From the NCBI GenBank assembly GCA_016185605.1, contig JACPNG010000001.1, positions 1 to 35,538 on the forward strand: DNA of 35,538 nt, read 5' to 3'. The translations under genes and the position numbers were made by a program. Position 1 is the first letter of the stretch. Each line of letters starts with the position of its first letter. Shown in pieces: positions 9,203 to 33,667 of this stretch. The notes beneath the pieces were generated by a model that saw nothing but the letters and a program-made list of their open reading frames with translations, was not told where the DNA came from and did no database searches. The DNA is from Candidatus Woesearchaeota archaeon (GTDB lineage Archaea; Nanobdellota; Nanobdellia; SCGC-AAA011-G17; JACPNG01).

Positions 9203-12200
9203 ATGCAAAAAGAGGTCAAGGCTTATTTCCAGATAATTATATTAATATTTTCAATATTTACATTTTCCAGTCTGAATTCTGATAATGCTTATGCTGTGCA
9301 GTCATGCTGCGAGAAGACATTAGACGGAGAATACTGCAGATTTGCTGACTCAAAGCAATGCGACAATGAATTTAATTCAGCATCTGTTAGATGCGAGCAG
9401 ACTAGCTATTGTAATGTTGGAACATGCGTGATTGATGGAAGATGCATAGACAGCTCAACAAAAGCTTCTTGTGTAGAGCAAAAAGGAAAATTTTTCTCTC
9501 AATCTTCCAGCTCAATAGCTGAATGCAGAAGAGGATGCTGTTTAACAAATGATCAATGTAATTATGAAACTGAATTAAGCTGCAAGCAAAAACAAGATTT
9601 ATTTACTAATGAAGAATTTGATTTTAGGGATATTGGATCAGAACAAGAATGTCTAAACTTATGCAAAGAAGAACAGCAGGGTTGCTGCGTTGATTCTGGA
9701 ACATGTACAATAACCTCTGAATCAGAATGTAATTTAGCTATTAATCCAATAACAGGAGAGGGATTTTATTCTAATAGCTTATGCAGTTCATTAACCCAAT
9801 GTAAAACATGCAAGCCAAAAAATAACAAGGGATGTTTTGATGACGATGTTTATTGGTTTGATTCTTGCGGGAATAGAGAGGGAAAAGTTGAAGATTGTAA
9901 TTATGCTTCTGGAACTATATGCAGCCCTAAAACTTTAAAATGCGAATCTTTAGATTGCGAAGACACAAAAAATTATCCCGGTAATCCTCATGATTCCAAG
10001 ATTGGAGGTCCAAGAAAGAATGGAGAATCTTGGTGTGTTTATGAATCTGGAACAGGCGATTATTTAGACAGGCCAGGATCAAGGCATTATAGAGTAATGT
10101 GTGTTAATAATGAAGAGATAGTTGAACCTTGCAGGGATTTTAGGGAAGAAATATGTGTACAATCAACCACAAAAGAATTTACAGAAGCTACATGCATAGA
10201 AAATAATTTTAATTCCAATGATAATATTAAATTAGATTCTTCAAAAACCACTGTGCCACCTGGAAATGAATTCTGGAGAGGCGATAAGATTGGAATTGGA
10301 AGTAGTTTTATAGGAAATTCTTTTGGAGGTTCAACATGCAATACAGCAAATAGGCAATGTCCTGTTGTTTATGTCAAAAAAAACAGAATAAGCTCCTGGA
10401 AATGTGAAAAGAATTGTGAATGTGAGGAACAAAGTTATATTGATCAGATGGCTAAGTTTTGCAAAGCCCAAGGAGATTGTGGAGCTGACTTCAATGTATT
10501 TGATGTTTATTCTGATTCTGGGTTTAAGGTTACTGGCGATGGAAAAGCACCTAAAATAGTTAGCGAGAATGAAAAACAAAATTGGCTGAGAAGAGGGATT
10601 TATGGCGGAGTTATTTTACTTGGAGAAGAATTTCAAAAACAGTTAGAGAAAGTTGAATTAAGTGATATAGGGGAGAAATTACAATTAGGGGGAACTTTAC
10701 TGGGGGGAGTTGGATTTTTAGCAAATAGTGCTTTTGCAGGAGTAGGATTTTATAATATTGGAGGATCTCTTGGATTCTTCCCTTCATTAGAAGCTGCAAA
10801 ATTAGCAGCTTCAGCAGCAGCACAAACAGCATTAGCAGAATCAACTGTTGGACTTGCTACATCAACAGAACTTAGTGCTGCTGGAACACAAGCAGCAGCT
10901 GCAACAACAGCACCAACTATAGGAATCGGAGCAGTTTTTACAGTTGCGGTAGTTGCAATAGTTGTTGTAGCATTTTTATTGTCTGGGGGAAAAACAAAAA
11001 TAAAATATGTCAATACAACCTGCAATTCTTGGGTAGCTCCATCAGGAGGAGATAGCTGCAAAAAATGTGATAATTTTGAATCATGCACAGAATATAAATG
11101 TAAATCATTAGGACAATCATGTGTTTTTATTCCTGAAAATGAAGGAACAGATAGAATAAGCTGTATTAATCAAAATCCAAATGATGTCAACAGCCCAATA
11201 ATAAGTATATGGCAGGAAAATATAACTAAGGGCTATAATATTGATATATTATCTTATGGATTTGAATTATCCCCAGCTATAGAACCTTATCAAAGAATTA
11301 CATTAGGGGTTTTAACAAATGAACCATCACAATGCAAATATTCAAAAGAACATAGCATAGACTTTGAGAATATGGAAGAATTCTTTGGAGATTCTTTCTA
11401 TGATATAAAACACAGTATTACATCAAATTCAATTCCCGGATCATTAAATCAATTCTATGTAAAATGCAAAGATGCTAATGGAAACAAAAATAATAGGGAT
11501 TATCTAATCCAATATTCTGTCAAGCCCGGTCCTGATTTAACCCCAGTTATAATAGAAAGTTCAAATCCAGAGAACCTAGCTACAATCCCATTTGATCTAG
11601 ATACATTGCCTTTTACTTTGTATCTTAATGAGCCCAGTGAATGCAGATATTCATTAAGCGATGTTGAATATGATGCTATGCAGAAGACCTTTGTATGTGA
11701 TGAGTTAGAAGATGTTATAGATAATAATAAATTTAGTTGCTTGGCTGCTCTAAATCTTACTGTTGGAGATAATGAATTTTTCATAAGATGCAAAGATTCT
11801 TCTGGAAACCTAAATTCAGAAAGCTATTTACTAAAATTAAGGAGAAGTGATAGATTAAATATAATATCAAAAGAGCCTACTGGAGAGATTTATCTAAATG
11901 ATGTTTTACTGAATGTTGTAACATCTGGTGGTGCTGAAAATGGGAAATCAATATGCAGCTTTGACTCAGGAAATAATTCAGTATTATTCTTGAATACAAA
12001 TAATAATATCCATACCCAGCCGTTAACATTAGACTTTGGAGATTATAACTATAAGATAATATGCAGCGACAGCTCTGGAAATTTTGCATATGATAATCTA
12101 AATTTTATGGTTACAAAGGATATTAAGCCACCGCAATTCATTAATATATACAAAGAAGGCAATGAATTAACTCTTACATTTAATGAAAAAGTTAGTTGTG

Positions 12201-19749: not shown

Positions 19750-21993
19750 ATGCAAGAAAATTTTGGATTAAGAATAAAAAGAGCTGTTAAAAAAGTGGCT
19801 GCGATTTCTACTGGTGTTGCTATGATGGGTGCAACTATGACTGGTGCATTGGCATTAGATTTAGCTGAGTACCCTGCTCCATTTGTTACAGATGGAACAT
19901 ACAGTTCAAGCAATGCTTTGATTGTTGGTGCAGGAGCTGCAGCATCAGACACATTGGGAATGGTAGATATAGCAAGTAATTTACAATTTGAATCTAAGGT
20001 ATGTACTGCAACTTCTGGAAGTTCAGTATCTGTTGTTGGCGGAAAAACTGAGGAAATACCACTTGGATTATACATTGCAGACAATGGAGACTCAAGAAAC
20101 TTTGATCAGGAATTAACAGATTCCGACTTACCACATTTATTAGATACAACAGTTACATTCCAGAGTTCAGAATATGATGTTAAAGAGGTATTAAAATTAG
20201 ATGAAGGGGCTGCAGGAAATGTTAGTATAATGACATCATTAACATCTTCAGAAGATGATTATGAGACTGATATTGTTATGGAAGTAGAGAAGGATTCCAT
20301 TAAATATTATTATGTATTTGATGAGGCAATCCAGCCAAACAAGACAACAAGTTCAGACCCATTAGAGATTAAATTCTTGGGACAGACTATTAAAATAACA
20401 GATGTTGATGATACTACAGCCAATAAGATTACAGCCAGAGTAGGAGCTGAATTCTTCATGAATGTAGGCGATACTGTAACTGTATCTGGAAAGAAGATAA
20501 CATTGGAGAATGTTGGTTCAGGAGGCGCTATTGTAGTTAATGTAGATGGTGTTTCTGAAACAATACCATCATCAAATACAGAGACTATTAATGGGATTGA
20601 GATTAATAATGATGAGACATTCTATGAGGATAATAAAGAACAAAGATCAGCTACTTTAGTTATTGGAAAAGATGCTGTTGAATCATATGCTGATGGAGAT
20701 GCCTATGTTGGAGAGGATGATAATGATCCTGACTGGGTATGGAACCTAGCTAATCTGCATACAACAACTTCAACAACAACAACTGCAGATGCAGAATATA
20801 CTGGACCAGTAATTGGAATAGAAAATGACTTTGTATGGAACGATGATTCAGATAATCCTCCTGGTGTAGGAGAATGTATTGACTTGCCAAACAATTATAT
20901 AAGCATTTGCTTTGACAGTTTAACTGTAGCAGATGAAGATTATATGACATTAACAATTGAAAGGGAGGCATCAACTGATTTAAGTGAGGCATTTGCATTG
21001 AATACTAGCGTACCAGCAATTGCTATTAGTGTAAATGAAAATGAGGGATTAGTAGTTGATATAAGCCAGATAACAGCAAATATAACTAATGACGCTAAGA
21101 CAGATAAAATATGGCTATACAATGACAATGCTAGTATGGGTGTTTACTATGAAGATACAAATGGAAAGACACAATTGGCAGGATATGTTGAAAATAATTC
21201 AGCCGATGCGGCAACAAATGGTGCTGGATTTATAGACATTAACTTTGGAAGCACTAAAGATACAGATATCCAGTTTGATCTTGTTGGAGGATTTGATGGA
21301 GATAAGTTAAATCTTACATTAATTCCATTTGATTCAACTGATTTACCAAGTCAGCAAGATAATATAACAACAGTTTGGACATCGGGTGCTGCCGGAATTA
21401 CTGCATTAGGAGCAACAGTTTCTACAGAAGAAGCTAGTGAATTAGTCTATATGGAGGGAGCTTTTATGACCTCAAGCGGAGAGATTAACATAGGAACAAA
21501 AGATGAAGACCATAGAACAAAATATGGGATCATCATAAGAGACCCTAAATCCAATGGTGCAAGCGACCAAGTAGTATTAGAGATACCAGGAGACCAAGTT
21601 ATGGCTAATGTTGTCATAAAGGGGTCAGCAGCATCTGTAGCAAGCGGTGGAGAAAGCTGTACAGTAGCTGATGTAAGTCCTGTAACTATGACAGATGATG
21701 AAGTAACAGATGCAACAAAATACAACTTAATCTTGGTAGGCGGACCATGTGCCAATACCTTAGTAGAGAAATTAGGATTTGGAGTAACATGTGAAGGCTG
21801 GGACTTGAAAGAGGGAGAAGCAATGATTAAGTTGGTAGACAACGGAGACAAAGTAGCAATGTTGGTAGCTGGAACAGAAGCTCTAGACACAAGAAGGGCT
21901 GCTAAAGTAGTAGCTAACTACAAAGACTACACATTAAGCGGCACAGAGCAATTGGTTAGAGGTACAACCTTAACTGATATAACTGTAGAATAA
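19750..21993 (+). CDS. S-layer protein, MJ0822-like family
   Basis: The 747-residue protein has a long signal peptide (basic RIKRAVKKVAAISTG, likely cleavage after ALA near residue 36). The N-terminal S-layer domain follows: DLAEYPAPFV, then NALIVGAGAAASDTLGMVDIA. The C-terminal S-layer domain is also clear: YNLILVGGPCANTLVEKLG (about 658-676), then GEAMIKLVDNGDKVAMLVAG and DTRRAAKVVANY. It forms the surface lattice. There are several Asn-X-Ser/Thr sites (e.g. NVS, NKT, NTS, NAS, NNS, NLT, NIT) and a Thr-rich stretch (HTTTSTTTTAD, about 337-347) suited to glycosylation. It has its own promoter, leader, strong ribosome-binding site and terminator. Confidence 0.93.
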   Translation: MQENFGLRIKRAVKKVAAISTGVAMMGATMTGALALDLAEYPAPFVTDGTYSSSNALIVGAGAAASDTLGMVDIASNLQFESKVCTATSGSSVSVVGGKTEEIPLGLYIADNGDSRNFDQELTDSDLPHLLDTTVTFQSSEYDVKEVLKLDEGAAGNVSIMTSLTSSEDDYETDIVMEVEKDSIKYYYVFDEAIQPNKTTSSDPLEIKFLGQTIKITDVDDTTANKITARVGAEFFMNVGDTVTVSGKKITLENVGSGGAIVVNVDGVSETIPSSNTETINGIEINNDETFYEDNKEQRSATLVIGKDAVESYADGDAYVGEDDNDPDWVWNLANLHTTTSTTTTADAEYTGPVIGIENDFVWNDDSDNPPGVGECIDLPNNYISICFDSLTVADEDYMTLTIEREASTDLSEAFALNTSVPAIAISVNENEGLVVDISQITANITNDAKTDKIWLYNDNASMGVYYEDTNGKTQLAGYVENNSADAATNGAGFIDINFGSTKDTDIQFDLVGGFDGDKLNLTLIPFDSTDLPSQQDNITTVWTSGAAGITALGATVSTEEASELVYMEGAFMTSSGEINIGTKDEDHRTKYGIIIRDPKSNGASDQVVLEIPGDQVMANVVIKGSAASVASGGESCTVADVSPVTMTDDEVTDATKYNLILVGGPCANTLVEKLGFGVTCEGWDLKEGEAMIKLVDNGDKVAMLVAGTEALDTRRAAKVVANYKDYTLSGTEQLVRGTTLTDITVE

Positions 21994-22110: not shown

Positions 22111-24465
22111 ATGGAAGAGAATAAAAGTGAGGTAAGCAAGGATAATATAGATTACAGGAAAAACAAGATAATAAATTATTTCTTAACTAATAAAAATCTG
22201 TTAATATACATTATTCTGTTAATATTGGTTATATTTGCTTATGATGTAAGAACCAATAATTTTAATCTATTGAAAGATTCAACAACAGGAGACTTTACTC
22301 CAATAGATATTGATTCATATCTTTATCTAAGGTATGCCCAGCAAGTAATAGATCAAGGAAAGGTATTAGCACATGATGCTCTTAGATATTATCCTTACGG
22401 CTATGAAACATCTGGAGAAACCATATTTGTATCTTATTTTATAGCTTACTTATATAAATTCCTTCATTTCTTTAATTCTAATATAACCTTAAATTATACT
22501 GATATAATATATCCTGCATTAACCTCAGCTATAGGATTAATATTCTTTTTTTTGTTAGTAAGAAGACTATTTAACTATAAAATAGCTTTATTATCAAGCT
22601 TCTTATTGGCTGTTATTCCCTCTTTTGTCTACAGAACTATGTCTCCAGATAAAGAGGCATTGGCCAATATGTTCATGTTTATGGCATTGTATTTTTTTGT
22701 GGTAGCATACCAATCTGACAAGCTAAAAAAATCAATCTCATTGGGAATATTAGCTGGAATCTCAACTGGATTAATGGCCCTTAGCTGGGGCGGGGTCCAA
22801 TTCATATTCTTGACAATAGGATTATTCTATCTAATAACGATAGCATTAAATAAATTTGATCTAAATAAATTTTTGGCATACTGCAGTTGGATGCTCACTA
22901 TGTTTTTTATAGCGATTAGCCTTTCTGGAAGATACACTATAAATGGAATATTATTTTCATTTACAACAGAGGTTGTTTTGGCTGGATTTTTAGCTGGATT
23001 AATCTATTATATTGTTTATGAAAAAGACTTATTAAAAATAAAAAACAAATTAGAAAGATATCCCAAAGGGGTATTATCTGTATTTATTACTGGATTAATT
23101 GGATTAATATTTGTCATTTTATTATATGGGCCATCTTTTATCTCAAATCTATTAAATGAGCAGTATATTAATTTAATACAGCCATTTGGAAGGACAAGAT
23201 GGGCATTGACTGTAGCAGAATCCCATCAGCCTTATCTTGTTGATTGGGCTAGCAATCTTGGATGGAAGTACATCTGGGTGTTTATTATAGGATCTGTTAT
23301 TTTATTTTATGAATTGATTAAATCGTTGGATAAGCATATCTGGAAATTTACTGTTTTATACTTTTTATTTATAATTGGGATTACTTTTAGCAGGTATTCT
23401 TCAGATTCTGTTTTCAATGGAACTTCATCTACAGCACAATTTGTGTATTTTAGCTCTATAATAATTTTTATCTTGATTTTATTGATAATATACTTGTATT
23501 CATATTATGTTAATGGGGGGTTATTTGAGAGATTTAATAAGCTAGATGATCATATAATTTTTATTTTACTATGGTCATTCCTGATGATTATAGCAGCTAG
23601 ATCAGCTATAAGATTATTATCTGTTATATCTCCTGTAACTGTAATTATTGTCAGTTATTTTGCATTCTGGTTATATGATAAATCTAAATCTTCCAGAAAT
23701 ATTTATAGGATATCATCATATATATTATTATTCCTAATATTATTATTGCCAGTAGCATTATCATCCACAACTTTTGCATTCGGGATTTTTGATAAGGGAA
23801 TAATTCCAAAGTTTACTAAATCTACGATTGATACCTCAAGAAATTTAGGGCCAAGCTATGGAAATCAATGGCAGCAATCAATGAAATGGGTAAGAGAAAA
23901 TACTCCAAAAGAATCTGTTATTGCACACTGGTGGGATTACGGATACTGGGTGCAGTATGGGGGGCAAAGGGCAACATTAAGCGATGGAGGAAATGCGCTT
24001 AGGGCTATAAATCATTTTATAGGAAGGCATGTATTAACAGCTCAGAGTGAGGGAGAGGCATTAGAGTTCTTGAAATCGAGAGGAGCAAATTATTTGTTGA
24101 TGATAGATGATGATATTGGCAAATATCCAGCTTTCTCATCTATAGGGGCAGATGCGAATTATGACAGGTATTCATGGATTAGCACTTATGTCTTAGATCC
24201 AAATAAGCAGGAAGGCAGAGATATTAGTTATTATGTCTATAGGGGCGGAGTTGCTCTAGATGGCGATTTTGAGTATCAAGGAAAAATATTTCCAGCAAAT
24301 AATGCTGGCATAGGAGCATTCTTAGTTCCTATAAAAGGCGAACAAGATATCCTAAGTTTAGGACAGCCAACAGCATTATTGTTTTATAATAATCAGCAGT
24401 TTAATGTTCCATTAAAATGGTGGCAACAGAATAGGCGCAGCCTTATATCTATCCCCAAAAGTTAA
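22111..24465 (+). CDS. aglB: Oligosaccharyltransferase AglB (STT3 family), C-terminus frameshifted
   Basis: This frame encodes 784 residues with about 12-13 membrane helices and then an external C-terminal domain. Catalytic features are intact: an acidic D66-x-D68-SYLYLR loop, MSPDKEALANMF, and the STT3 signature W607-W608-D609-Y610-G611. AglB transfers lipid-linked glycans to Asn in Asn-X-Ser/Thr on exported proteins such as the S-layer protein directly upstream. The frame ends early at 24463-24465 with IPKS, but the reading continues in the +1 frame for about 75 codons up to the next gene. A full product would have about 855 residues. The lesion is in the C-terminal domain, so residual activity is possible, and an assembly error is also possible. 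Confidence 0.9.
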   Translation: MEENKSEVSKDNIDYRKNKIINYFLTNKNLLIYIILLILVIFAYDVRTNNFNLLKDSTTGDFTPIDIDSYLYLRYAQQVIDQGKVLAHDALRYYPYGYETSGETIFVSYFIAYLYKFLHFFNSNITLNYTDIIYPALTSAIGLIFFFLLVRRLFNYKIALLSSFLLAVIPSFVYRTMSPDKEALANMFMFMALYFFVVAYQSDKLKKSISLGILAGISTGLMALSWGGVQFIFLTIGLFYLITIALNKFDLNKFLAYCSWMLTMFFIAISLSGRYTINGILFSFTTEVVLAGFLAGLIYYIVYEKDLLKIKNKLERYPKGVLSVFITGLIGLIFVILLYGPSFISNLLNEQYINLIQPFGRTRWALTVAESHQPYLVDWASNLGWKYIWVFIIGSVILFYELIKSLDKHIWKFTVLYFLFIIGITFSRYSSDSVFNGTSSTAQFVYFSSIIIFILILLIIYLYSYYVNGGLFERFNKLDDHIIFILLWSFLMIIAARSAIRLLSVISPVTVIIVSYFAFWLYDKSKSSRNIYRISSYILLFLILLLPVALSSTTFAFGIFDKGIIPKFTKSTIDTSRNLGPSYGNQWQQSMKWVRENTPKESVIAHWWDYGYWVQYGGQRATLSDGGNALRAINHFIGRHVLTAQSEGEALEFLKSRGANYLLMIDDDIGKYPAFSSIGADANYDRYSWISTYVLDPNKQEGRDISYYVYRGGVALDGDFEYQGKIFPANNAGIGAFLVPIKGEQDILSLGQPTALLFYNNQQFNVPLKWWQQNRRSLISIPKS

Positions 24466-24679
24466 GAATAGCTTATTTGCACAATTATATATACTAGATA
24501 AAAAAACAAAAAATTTTGAATTAGTGTATAAAGATGATCTGCCTATAGCTGTATATAATGGAAATATCATAGGGCCTATAAAGATATGGAAGATAAATCC
24601 TCCAAAGAATATAAAGATAAATCCAGTATATCAGGGAACTGACCTGCCTGATCTAAGAGTAGATATAGTCAGGAGATAA
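24422..24679 (+). other. Displaced C-terminal part of AglB in the +1 frame
   Basis: The frame beginning near 24422 reads NRIGAALYLSPKVKNSLFAQ, then LYILDKKTKNFELVYKDD and on to LPDLRVDIVRR, stopping at 24677-24679. It has no start codon or ribosome-binding site of its own, is codon-like throughout, and ends 1 nt before the next ATG. The shift must lie between 24416 (after a TAA in this frame) and about 24440. There is no long homopolymer at the site. Confidence 0.82.
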
Positions 24680-24680
24680 T

Positions 24681-26165
24681 ATGAACATAAAAGACAGTTG
24701 GCTTTATTTTCCCATCTTAATACTTTCTTTGAATTTTATCTATAGATTAATAAACCAATCCCAGATCACGAAAATATTTCCCTTGGATTATACTAATGAC
24801 TGGGCTTCTTATATGGCACAGTTATTTTTCTTAGATAAATGCGGATATCTTAATTCATGCCCTTATTGGTATAATGGAATTTTAACATTAAAATCTGCCC
24901 AGCCAGGATGGTATTTTTTTACACTGCCACTATACAAACTGACAAATGATGTGTTAATTTCAGTTTTTATCTCTTTATTGATTATATTTATCTTGGGATT
25001 TCTTGCATTTTACTTGTTTGGAAGATTAAATGGATTTTCACTGATAAAAATTACTGCTTTTTTTATACTATTCTTTGGGAATGCAATTGCTGTTGGAAAT
25101 TTCATAAGATTGGGAAGGATAAATGAATTATATGGATGGCTGAATTTTATTCCATTCGCTTTTATTTTATTATGGTACAAAGATCATAAGCTGGATAAAA
25201 ACTTTTTCTGGACAGTTCCTTTTCTGTCAATAATACTATTGTCGCATCAGACTACTGCTATTTTATCTTTAGTATTGCTTTTAGGATTATTTTTAATTAA
25301 GAATGGAAAAGAAAAATTAAAGATAATCTTATCCGGGGTAATCTCATTCCTATTGGCATCATTCTGGCTAATCCCCTATATTATAAGCTTCTTTAATACA
25401 GAAGCAGTTAATATTATATTGACGAGAAATTTATTTTCTTTTGACAAAACTTACATATTGTCCAATATAGCTGTATGGCTGGTAATAATATTTTTATTTT
25501 TTATATTCTATTTCTATTGGATATATAATAATAAATCAAAAAAAGAATTGATTTTTTTCCTGCCGACATTAATAATAGCAGTATTATTATTTTTTGGGTT
25601 GACTTTTTACATTCCAATTTTGAAATTTGTCTATCCTGATTCGCATTTATACTATTTTATATTTTTGTTAATTTTCATGCTGTTCAAAACAGACTTAATT
25701 GTATTTAACGGAATTATAAAAAAGATGATATTCATAGGATTAATATTATTGCCAATAATAAGTGTAGCTGTTAATGTTTTTTACACCCCATATTTTATTG
25801 CTCATGGGGACTTGGAAAAAGATACATTATATGTTTTAGATGAGGTAGATGGAAGATTTATTATTTTGACAGATGAGTCATATCCGACATCATATACTCG
25901 AGCATATTATTCATATGCAGCAATATACTTAAGTAAATACACATCTTCTGGATTTTATCAGCAGTATATCTCCCAGGATTATTTCTCTAAACTAAAAGAT
26001 ATAAACAGTTATTTCAAAAATGATGACCCAAGAATATTAGAAACACTTAACATATTAAACACAACAAGTATTATAAGCTATGATAATGGATGCAATAAAT
26101 TAGAAAAGCTTAATTTAGAGAAAAGATTTAAAAAAGGAAGGGTTTGTCTTTACATTAATGAATAA
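24681..26165 (+). CDS. Polytopic membrane protein, GT-C-like / PTPS-related membrane family
   Basis: The 494-residue protein has about 11-12 membrane helices and a short soluble C-terminus. An acidic first loop (NDWASYMAQ), WYNGILTLKSAQPGWYFFTLP, an internal FIRLGRINELYGWLNFIPFA and LLSHQTTAILSL resemble the large archaeal/bacterial membrane families related to '6-pyruvoyl-tetrahydropterin synthase-related' membrane proteins, which share a GT-C-like fold. A role in lipid-linked sugar transfer is inferred. AGGAGA lies 5 nt before the ATG, inside the displaced AglB tail, and the gene overlaps the next by 8 nt. Confidence 0.62.
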   Translation: MNIKDSWLYFPILILSLNFIYRLINQSQITKIFPLDYTNDWASYMAQLFFLDKCGYLNSCPYWYNGILTLKSAQPGWYFFTLPLYKLTNDVLISVFISLLIIFILGFLAFYLFGRLNGFSLIKITAFFILFFGNAIAVGNFIRLGRINELYGWLNFIPFAFILLWYKDHKLDKNFFWTVPFLSIILLSHQTTAILSLVLLLGLFLIKNGKEKLKIILSGVISFLLASFWLIPYIISFFNTEAVNIILTRNLFSFDKTYILSNIAVWLVIIFLFFIFYFYWIYNNKSKKELIFFLPTLIIAVLLFFGLTFYIPILKFVYPDSHLYYFIFLLIFMLFKTDLIVFNGIIKKMIFIGLILLPIISVAVNVFYTPYFIAHGDLEKDTLYVLDEVDGRFIILTDESYPTSYTRAYYSYAAIYLSKYTSSGFYQQYISQDYFSKLKDINSYFKNDDPRILETLNILNTTSIISYDNGCNKLEKLNLEKRFKKGRVCLYINE

Positions 26166-30956: not shown

Positions 30957-32230
30957 TAAATAAAATAGTTAAGATGTTTAATAACAATTCTATATTGATT
31001 AAAGACAACTTCCTTATTTTTATAGCATTTAACATGGCAAATCTAATTGGATTTTTATTCCAGTTTTACATGGGAAGGGTATTGGGGCCAAGCGATTATG
31101 GAATACTGGGAACATTATTGGCATTAGTATATTTGTTTAATGTTTTTGTATTGGCAATACAAACAAGCATAGCAAAATTTGTCTCTGATCTAAAAGTCAA
31201 GAATGAATATAATAAAATAGCTTATCTTTTAGTTAGATCATTAAGAAAATTATTTATATTAAACTCATTGATTGTTATAGCATTAATCATAGTTAGTCCA
31301 TTCTTAGCTGATTTCCTGCATATTGAAAAACTGCCATTGATAATAATTGCATTTTTTATCTTGTTTGCGGGAGTTATTCCTGCTACAAGGGGAATATTAC
31401 AAGGGCTGCAGAAATTTTCCAGTTATGGCTTAAATTATTTAATAGAGGCGATTTTAAAGTTATTAATTGCTTTTATATTAGTATATTTGGGATTTAAAGT
31501 TAATGCAGGAGTTTTGGCAATAGTATTATCTGTTATGCTTGCATTGATATTATCGCTTGTTCCATTAAAAAAGCTTTTATTCATCAAAAAAGAAAAGTTC
31601 AATACTGATATAATATATTCTTATTCATTTCCTGTCGGATTTACTTTATTGATGCTGACTTCTTTATATACAGTTGATATAATATTAGTCAAGCATTTTT
31701 TGGATCCTGTTAAAGCCGGATTATATGCTGCCATGGCATTAATAGGCAAGGCAATATTCTTCGGGAATTTCTCAATATGCCAAGTAATGTTTGCAAAAGC
31801 ATCTGAGCTTTACTATAAAAATGAGCATTCCAAGAATATTTTATATAAATCATTGTTCTTTATCTTAATGTTATCAGTACCAGTTATAATAATATACTAT
31901 TTATTTTCGGATTTTATCTTAAGAATATCTTATGGTCAAAGTTACTTGGAAATATCAAATCTTATATGGCTTTATTCACTGGCAATATTATTGTTTACAT
32001 TAATATATACAATATCCTTGTATAATCTGGCTATAGGAAAAATAAGATTTATCTACTTATTGGTATTGTTTAATTTATTGGAAATTTCATTAATATGGCT
32101 GTTCCATGATACAATATTAAATGTTATAATGATATTATTGTATTTATTATCAGCCTTGTTTGGATTATCCTTATTGATAGTATGGTTTTCAAAAGATGTC
32201 AGATCTAACACTCGTAATTCCAGCTTATAA
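30953..32230 (+). CDS. Polysaccharide flippase, MOP/Wzx-like
   Basis: The 425-residue protein has about 12 membrane helices. The start resembles Wzx/RfbX and MurJ-type flippases: IAFNMANLIGFLFQFYMGRVLGPSDYGILGTLLAL, with IQTSIAKFVSDLK and PATRGILQGLQKFSSYG further on. It probably flips the lipid-linked glycan built by the adjacent enzymes to the outer face, where AglB can use it. The ATG overlaps the preceding stop (ATGA), and the 3' end overlaps the next gene by 35 nt, so all three are coupled. Confidence 0.9.
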   Translation: MINKIVKMFNNNSILIKDNFLIFIAFNMANLIGFLFQFYMGRVLGPSDYGILGTLLALVYLFNVFVLAIQTSIAKFVSDLKVKNEYNKIAYLLVRSLRKLFILNSLIVIALIIVSPFLADFLHIEKLPLIIIAFFILFAGVIPATRGILQGLQKFSSYGLNYLIEAILKLLIAFILVYLGFKVNAGVLAIVLSVMLALILSLVPLKKLLFIKKEKFNTDIIYSYSFPVGFTLLMLTSLYTVDIILVKHFLDPVKAGLYAAMALIGKAIFFGNFSICQVMFAKASELYYKNEHSKNILYKSLFFILMLSVPVIIIYYLFSDFILRISYGQSYLEISNLIWLYSLAILLFTLIYTISLYNLAIGKIRFIYLLVLFNLLEISLIWLFHDTILNVIMILLYLLSALFGLSLLIVWFSKDVRSNTRNSSL

Positions 32231-32903
32231 TGAAGAGAAAAGAATCAAAAGTAGTTTACAGTCTCTTGATAAGGTATTTGGAAATAAAGTGGATATATTG
32301 GTTGTCTCAAATGGAAGTTCTGACAGGACAATAGAGATATTAAATGAATGGAAAAAGAGCCATAAAAATCTAAAATATTTGGATTTTCCTGAAAAGCTTG
32401 GAAAAGGAGGAGCTATATTAGAAGGACTTAAGATAGCTAAAAATAAGTATATTGGCTATATTGATGCAGATGACGCTTTTAATTTAGTTTATATAAAGAA
32501 TATTATAAGCGAGCTTAAAAATTATGATGCTGTTATTGCCTCAAAATGGAAGGACAAGAATTTCTTTACTGTAAACGAGCCTTTCTTAAGAAAATTATTA
32601 AGCAGAGGATGGAATACATTGGTTAGATTTTTGCTAGGGTTAAAATATAAAGACACCCAGGCTGGAGCAAAGTTCTTTAGAAGCAGTGCATTAGCAAACA
32701 TTGATATGGATTTTATATGCAAAAATTTTGCGTTTGATGTTGAATTGCTATGGAAATTAAAAGAAAAGGGATATTCCATCCAAGAATCATATGTTCCTAC
32801 AATTCACAGGGAAGGAAGCACCTTCAAAACAATTTATGCAGTGTATATGTTTAATAGCTTAATCAAGTTATGGTGGTATAAATGCAAAAAAATATACTTC
32901 TGA
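32196..32903 (+). CDS. Family 2 glycosyltransferase, dolichyl-phosphate sugar synthase-like
   Basis: The 235-residue single GT-A domain protein has LTLVIPAYNEEKRI (residues 4-17), VVSNGSSDRT, KLGKGGAILEGLKIA and the metal-binding YIDADDAF near 90. DTQAGAKFFRSSAL and FAFDVELLWKLKEKGYSI follow. This set is typical of Alg5/AglJ/DPM-type enzymes acting on polyprenyl phosphate or a lipid-linked glycan. Compared with the GT2 at 26158 it has DADD rather than DVDL at the metal site, so the two are distinct paralogues. It overlaps the flippase gene by 35 nt and the deacetylase gene by 22 nt. Confidence 0.87.
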   Translation: MSDLTLVIPAYNEEKRIKSSLQSLDKVFGNKVDILVVSNGSSDRTIEILNEWKKSHKNLKYLDFPEKLGKGGAILEGLKIAKNKYIGYIDADDAFNLVYIKNIISELKNYDAVIASKWKDKNFFTVNEPFLRKLLSRGWNTLVRFLLGLKYKDTQAGAKFFRSSALANIDMDFICKNFAFDVELLWKLKEKGYSIQESYVPTIHREGSTFKTIYAVYMFNSLIKLWWYKCKKIYF

Positions 32904-33667
32904 CATTCGATACTGAGGAGTTTGATGCATTAAATGGAAAATCCACTATAGAAGTAAGCACAAATGGCCTGAATAAAATCATTAAATTATTAGATAAGCA
33001 TGATATAAAAGCAACTTTTTTCGTCACAGGAATTTTTGCAGAACATAATAAGTTATTAATAAAAAAACTATCAAAAAAACATGAAATAGCATCCCATGGA
33101 TATTCTCATAGTTCAAATTATAATAAAATGAATGAGAAAGAGGTTTATAATTCATTGTTAAAAACAAATAACATATTAAAAAAAATAATAAACAAAAAGA
33201 TAATGGGATATAGGTCTCCAAGATTCAGCAAAATCGACTTAAGAATACTGAAAAAACTGGATTTTAAGTATGACAGCTCTGTCAATCCTACTTTTGTTCC
33301 TGGAAGATACAATTATTTGTCGCATACAAGAAAAATAACAATAAAAGACAATATTGCTGTAATACCAATGTCTGTCTCCCCTCTATTAAGACTGCCTTTA
33401 TTCTGGTTTGCATTCAAGAATTTTGGATTAATTTACTCAAAACTAATAACAAAAATATGCTTATTAGACCAGGATTTTGTCCATTTGGTTTTTCATCCAT
33501 GGGAATTTGAAGAGTTATCAAAGTATAACATATCATTTATATATAAATTAAATTCTGGAAGTTCTTTAATAAAAAAATTAGATAATTATATTGTATGGTG
33601 CAAAAGAAACAATATGAAATTTGACACAGTGCAAGGTTATCTTATTAATGGGAGTTATATAAAATGA
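32882..33667 (+). CDS. Polysaccharide deacetylase (NodB-type carbohydrate esterase 4)
   Basis: The 261-residue protein has the NodB plan: motif 1 L-T-F-D10-T-E-E, motif 2 S-H72-G-Y-S-H76, motif 3 G-Y-R111-S-P-R-F, and a late FVHLVFHPWEFEE carrying a possible catalytic His. The long insert DSSVNPTFVPGRYNYLS and the HPWEF end are like exopolysaccharide-locus deacetylases. These metal-dependent enzymes remove N-acetyl groups from hexosamine residues. There is no signal peptide, so it probably acts in the cytosol on a lipid-linked sugar or precursor. It overlaps both neighbours in the operon. Confidence 0.88.
   Translation: MQKNILLTFDTEEFDALNGKSTIEVSTNGLNKIIKLLDKHDIKATFFVTGIFAEHNKLLIKKLSKKHEIASHGYSHSSNYNKMNEKEVYNSLLKTNNILKKIINKKIMGYRSPRFSKIDLRILKKLDFKYDSSVNPTFVPGRYNYLSHTRKITIKDNIAVIPMSVSPLLRLPLFWFAFKNFGLIYSKLITKICLLDQDFVHLVFHPWEFEELSKYNISFIYKLNSGSSLIKKLDNYIVWCKRNNMKFDTVQGYLINGSYIK

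Follow-up and report, generated by a model that had tools for sequence, protein, structure and literature searches.

The assembled genome of a Candidatus Woesearchaeota archaeon (GenBank assembly GCA_016185605.1) presents its aglB gene in two reading frames, and the question that this locus raises is whether the break belongs to the gene, to its translation or to the assembly. The window, i.e., the whole stretch of 35,538 nt that was analyzed, carries aglB on its forward strand, directly downstream of an S-layer protein gene (PF05124, positions 19750–21993), so that a glycosylation enzyme is found beside its likely main substrate. The preliminary description had taken the gene for AglB, and this is borne out by the domain matches and by the homologues. 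PF02516, the STT3 N-terminal membrane domain, matched with 70.8 bits (cut-off 24.5, E 2e-19) and was the one match to this family in the genome, PF21436 matched with 29.8 bits (cut-off 23, E 9.7e-7), and the subfamily model TIGR04154 gave 127 bits, under its cut-off. The STT3/PglB/AglB core domain (23911–24054, forward strand) contains the WWDYG motif at residue 607 (codons from 23929), and it is followed by the segment DDDIGKYPAFS (24106–24138, forward strand; residues 666–676), a DK motif of the Lys type by pattern, whose lysine (K110 of the reference) was invariant across 54 sequences. Both lie in frame 0 and upstream of the lesion. The gene shares its domain order, the WWDYG motif and the Lys-type segment with archaeal AglB proteins (TIGR04154-like; PDB 5gmy, 7e9s, 3vu0, 2zag), but it differs from them in that its C-terminal beta region is short of ~30 residues and the remainder is out of frame. 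A complete C-terminal core in a single frame is absent from the printed aglB, which is a broken member of the AglB/STT3 family.

The frame-0 part (22111–24465, forward strand) starts with the ATG at 22111, runs over 784 codons and terminates at the TAA at 24463–24465. Homology to the relatives extends to residue 769 (24415–24417), after which there are 15 out-of-frame residues (WWQQNRRSLISIPKS) before the stop. The continuation is found in frame +1 (24416–24679, forward strand), open from 24416, just past a TAA at 24413–24415, to the TAA at 24677–24679, and coding for 87 codons plus stop, (NGG)NRIGAALYLSPKVK...RVDIVRR. This peptide is a genuine AglB C-terminus, with 36–54% identity to 29 homologues from 40 related genomes (best E 2e-26), as had been proposed from the letters. 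Its end is marked by the next gene (24681–26165, forward strand, ATG at 24681), an intact ORF for a 494-aa protein in which no Pfam match was found.

The comparison of homologous C-termini, which the preliminary description had recommended, settled the type of lesion. We measured the spacing between two conserved anchors, '...VPLK' and '...GAALYLSP', in 109 homologues (80 came from records of Woesearchaeota, Pacearchaeota, Nanoarchaeota and the like, and some of these duplicate the 29 genes found first). In all 109 the anchors were in one frame and separated by 93–126 nt, most commonly 99, 102 or 105 nt, vs. 13 nt and two frames in the window, a spacing shorter than that of every homologue by 80–113 nt. 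At the sequence level, the comparison shows the lesion to be an out-of-frame loss of ~86–92 nt (~30 codons) that all 109 homologues have, with a junction at ~24415–24430 of the forward strand. A loss of this size, congruent to 2 modulo 3, yields exactly frame +1, and the same comparison shows that the deletion shifts the last ~84 codons of aglB into that frame. The missing block, as seen in the relatives, reads KCxF..GQ.I.F...L.GCL.IIP.I....NP; it spans two to three beta strands and includes two cysteines that are kept in 76–79% of the AglB family. The original interpretation as a simple +1 shift or single-base indel does not survive, since removing one base cannot restore the protein, and a single-base sequencing error is excluded because ~30 conserved residues are absent whatever the frame. 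The accompanying estimate of a protein shortened by about 70 residues took in the out-of-frame tail but left out the internal block of ~30 residues that is lost as well.

These data bear also on a programmed +1 slip of the ribosome at AAU AGG C, by which a full AglB would be produced. There is an AGG-C string near the junction and AglB is encoded in both frames, and in this the site resembles the Ty1-type CUU AGG C and the prfB programmed +1 frameshifts, where the change of frame also takes place beside such a string. Unlike them, the site in the window has no slippery codon pair and no conservation, none of the 109 homologues changes frame there, and after any slip ~30 residues common to all of them would still be missing. 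No frame change can supply missing codons, and programmed frameshifting is therefore ruled out as a route to a normal AglB; we give this explanation virtually no credence, in agreement with the doubts already expressed about it.

A search for a second aglB had been recommended. The genome, which comprises 857 kb in 26 contigs and is 92% complete, yielded no further aglB and no further STT3 gene; the unassembled 8% could in principle hold a second aglB or a second trpS (see below). Among the relatives, the same-family genome G006 has three aglB matches (C84 and C55), vs. one in the genome of the window. Neither was anything convincing found when the genome was searched with a profile of the missing block, the best match (E 0.008, on contig C25) being antisense within a solid gene. 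Exact strings of 20–21 bases flanking the junction gave zero matches in viral contigs.

We have found a parallel lesion elsewhere in the same assembly. The only trpS of the genome, coding for the tryptophanyl-tRNA synthetase (TrpRS), is located at 10487–11540 of contig C23 on the minus strand and carries an out-of-frame deletion of 65 nt. At this site the genome has 13 nt vs. 78 nt in all the TrpRS homologues compared (69–84% identical), and the NCBIfam model for tryptophan--tRNA ligase matches two pieces of the gene, at model positions 8–135 and 150–371, in different frames. Besides trpS, the genome contains a single gene with PF00579 (TrpRS/TyrRS family), a complete ORF on contig C25 that we read as TyrRS. 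To our knowledge no cell dispenses with TrpRS, an essential enzyme, and for this reason the trpS lesion is almost certainly not the fixed state of the organism. Since this assembly shows an essential gene broken in a parallel way, the same artefactual origin is likely for the aglB lesion, and the assembly error that had been listed as an alternative gains support. The argument hangs on trpS being essential and not on the number of lesions.

The deletion-type frame breaks found in this genome were two only, those of aglB and trpS. The scan covered 439 genes compared with G008 (same family, 789 kb of it) and 290 compared with part of G012 (same order), and proteins from 138 further loci revealed no other confirmed frame break. 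Two breaks in 439 genes vs. none in 444 for the control G008 is not a significant difference (Fisher p = 0.25). An apparent third broken gene (C25:23160–25318) was really two adjoining genes with their own starts, a Hef-like helicase and a nuclease, split in G012 too; in G008 they are largely one fused ORF. Stops flagged in the first scan were placed by inspection at gene ends. On contig C3 (~31667–33060) a difference of the insertion type came from one query protein only, whose matches lay in two frames and were separated by ~170 extra nt; this may represent two neighbouring genes. In-frame deletions relative to the two relatives showed no excess in the genome of the window, a comparison that is uninformative. 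There was no sign of decay downstream of the aglB lesion, where the ratio of downstream to upstream identity was 0.84 (rank 93 of 108 intact genes), nor after the trpS lesion, where identity to the nearest homologue was 78% on either side. Of the other draft genomes of the same order, G037 has its trpS split into three pieces and its aglB in two frames (losses of roughly 10–110 nt), and in G028 aglB also occupies two frames, ~58 nt having been lost around residue 240, a site unlike that of the window. Such lesions recur across draft genomes of this order.

We consider that the out-of-frame deletion of ~86–92 nt carried by the assembled aglB (24417–24430) is most likely an artefact of assembly or of a chimeric molecule. 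The deletion would then most likely be absent from the genome of the living organism, having its source probably in a local assembly error, or in a consensus that took up a chimeric or minority molecule. The true aglB of the organism would code for an ordinary full-length AglB of ~885 residues, and translation itself would involve no shifting of frame. Spurious pseudogenes generated by genome assembly have been documented, low coverage being one of the causes (Cooley and Wright, 2024; PMC11017572). The likeness here is that a draft genome has a conserved single-copy gene interrupted but showing no decay, along with a second broken gene that is essential; the difference is that the lesions described here are deletions of 65 and ~86–92 nt, and not single-base indels or internal stops. 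As to how the molecule may have arisen, both junctions can be read with a microhomology of 3–6 nt when they are reconstructed from the relatives, that of aglB being compatible with a repeat of 4–6 nt (AATG/AAAATG). Microhomology would be less suited to the collapse of a repeat than to a true deletion or to a chimeric molecule produced during library preparation or amplification. Repeat collapse by a k-mer assembler is unlikely, because the possible junction repeat is limited on one side by the TAA in frame +1 and on the other by the usual Lys-Cys pair, and would not exceed ~6 nt provided that this pair existed.

The same 4–6 nt repeat would suit a recent and genuine microhomology deletion that inactivated the only aglB of the strain, or of a subpopulation, with S-layer N-glycosylation lost or impaired. 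Some archaea live without AglB activity, and the assembly has few breaks (2 in the 439 genes compared), both of which argue for such an event. Against it, the essential trpS carries a lesion of this kind in the same assembly, the tail of aglB shows no decay after the junction, and aglB is retained by the relatives, with matches in 32 of 40 genomes and in 22 of the 24 good ones. In Sulfolobus acidocaldarius AglB is essential (PMC4287180), which also counts against an inactivating loss. We regard this explanation as unlikely, although it is the chief competitor of the artefact.

To see what a real deletion would entail, we took L031, an intact relative with 48% identity, and modelled its C-terminal half together with 53 other sequences (pLDDT 90.7). 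The model matched AglB, PglB and STT3 structures, mostly with Z values of 10–17. The deleted block corresponds to approximately residues 213–245 of the model, two to three strands of a beta region inserted in the core, and the out-of-frame tail holds the last strands (residues 275–303). The shortest known AglB, AfAglB-S2 of A. fulgidus (3vu0), has nothing beyond the catalytic CC unit (PMC3703281), and it aligned to model residues 20–304 (first and last residues), with 144 of its 153 residues aligned and its C-terminus reached. Judging from this model, the truncated AglB would retain WWDYG and the Lys motif, with a catalytic core that would probably be incomplete at its end. A real deletion would deprive AglB of the last strands of the core and would probably leave it inactive, not merely trimmed, and in that the alignment of the lost tail to the final part of the minimal catalytic unit is in favour of a true inactivation.

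The alternative is that the deletion is real and the truncated AglB still works, the known catalytic motifs being all upstream of the lesion. The DxD-type loops, WWDYG and the DK-type lysine do precede it, the latter two within frame 0 at residue 607 and in the segment 666–676, and the short AglBs of A. fulgidus, CC unit only, could be taken as a precedent (PMC3703281). However, the CC-only AfAglB-S2 aligns up to model residue 304, past the deleted block, and part of that core would be missing here, while the trpS lesion points to an artefact also in this case. A functional truncated enzyme seems to us very improbable. A recent real deletion in aglB, all its forms taken together, is unlikely as well, though it deserves some weight.

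The apparent frameshift is true of the printed sequence, yet no +1 frameshift underlies it, and most likely it does not reflect biology. A real deletion would make this DPANN archaeon a natural aglB knock-out. We think it rather doubtful that an archaeon of the Woesearchaeales type lost its only oligosaccharyltransferase very recently while keeping the S-layer gene and the glycan locus, with N-glycosylating and non-glycosylating strains coexisting. With an artefact as the most likely origin, inferring from this genome either a loss of N-glycosylation or recoding in the organism would probably mislead.
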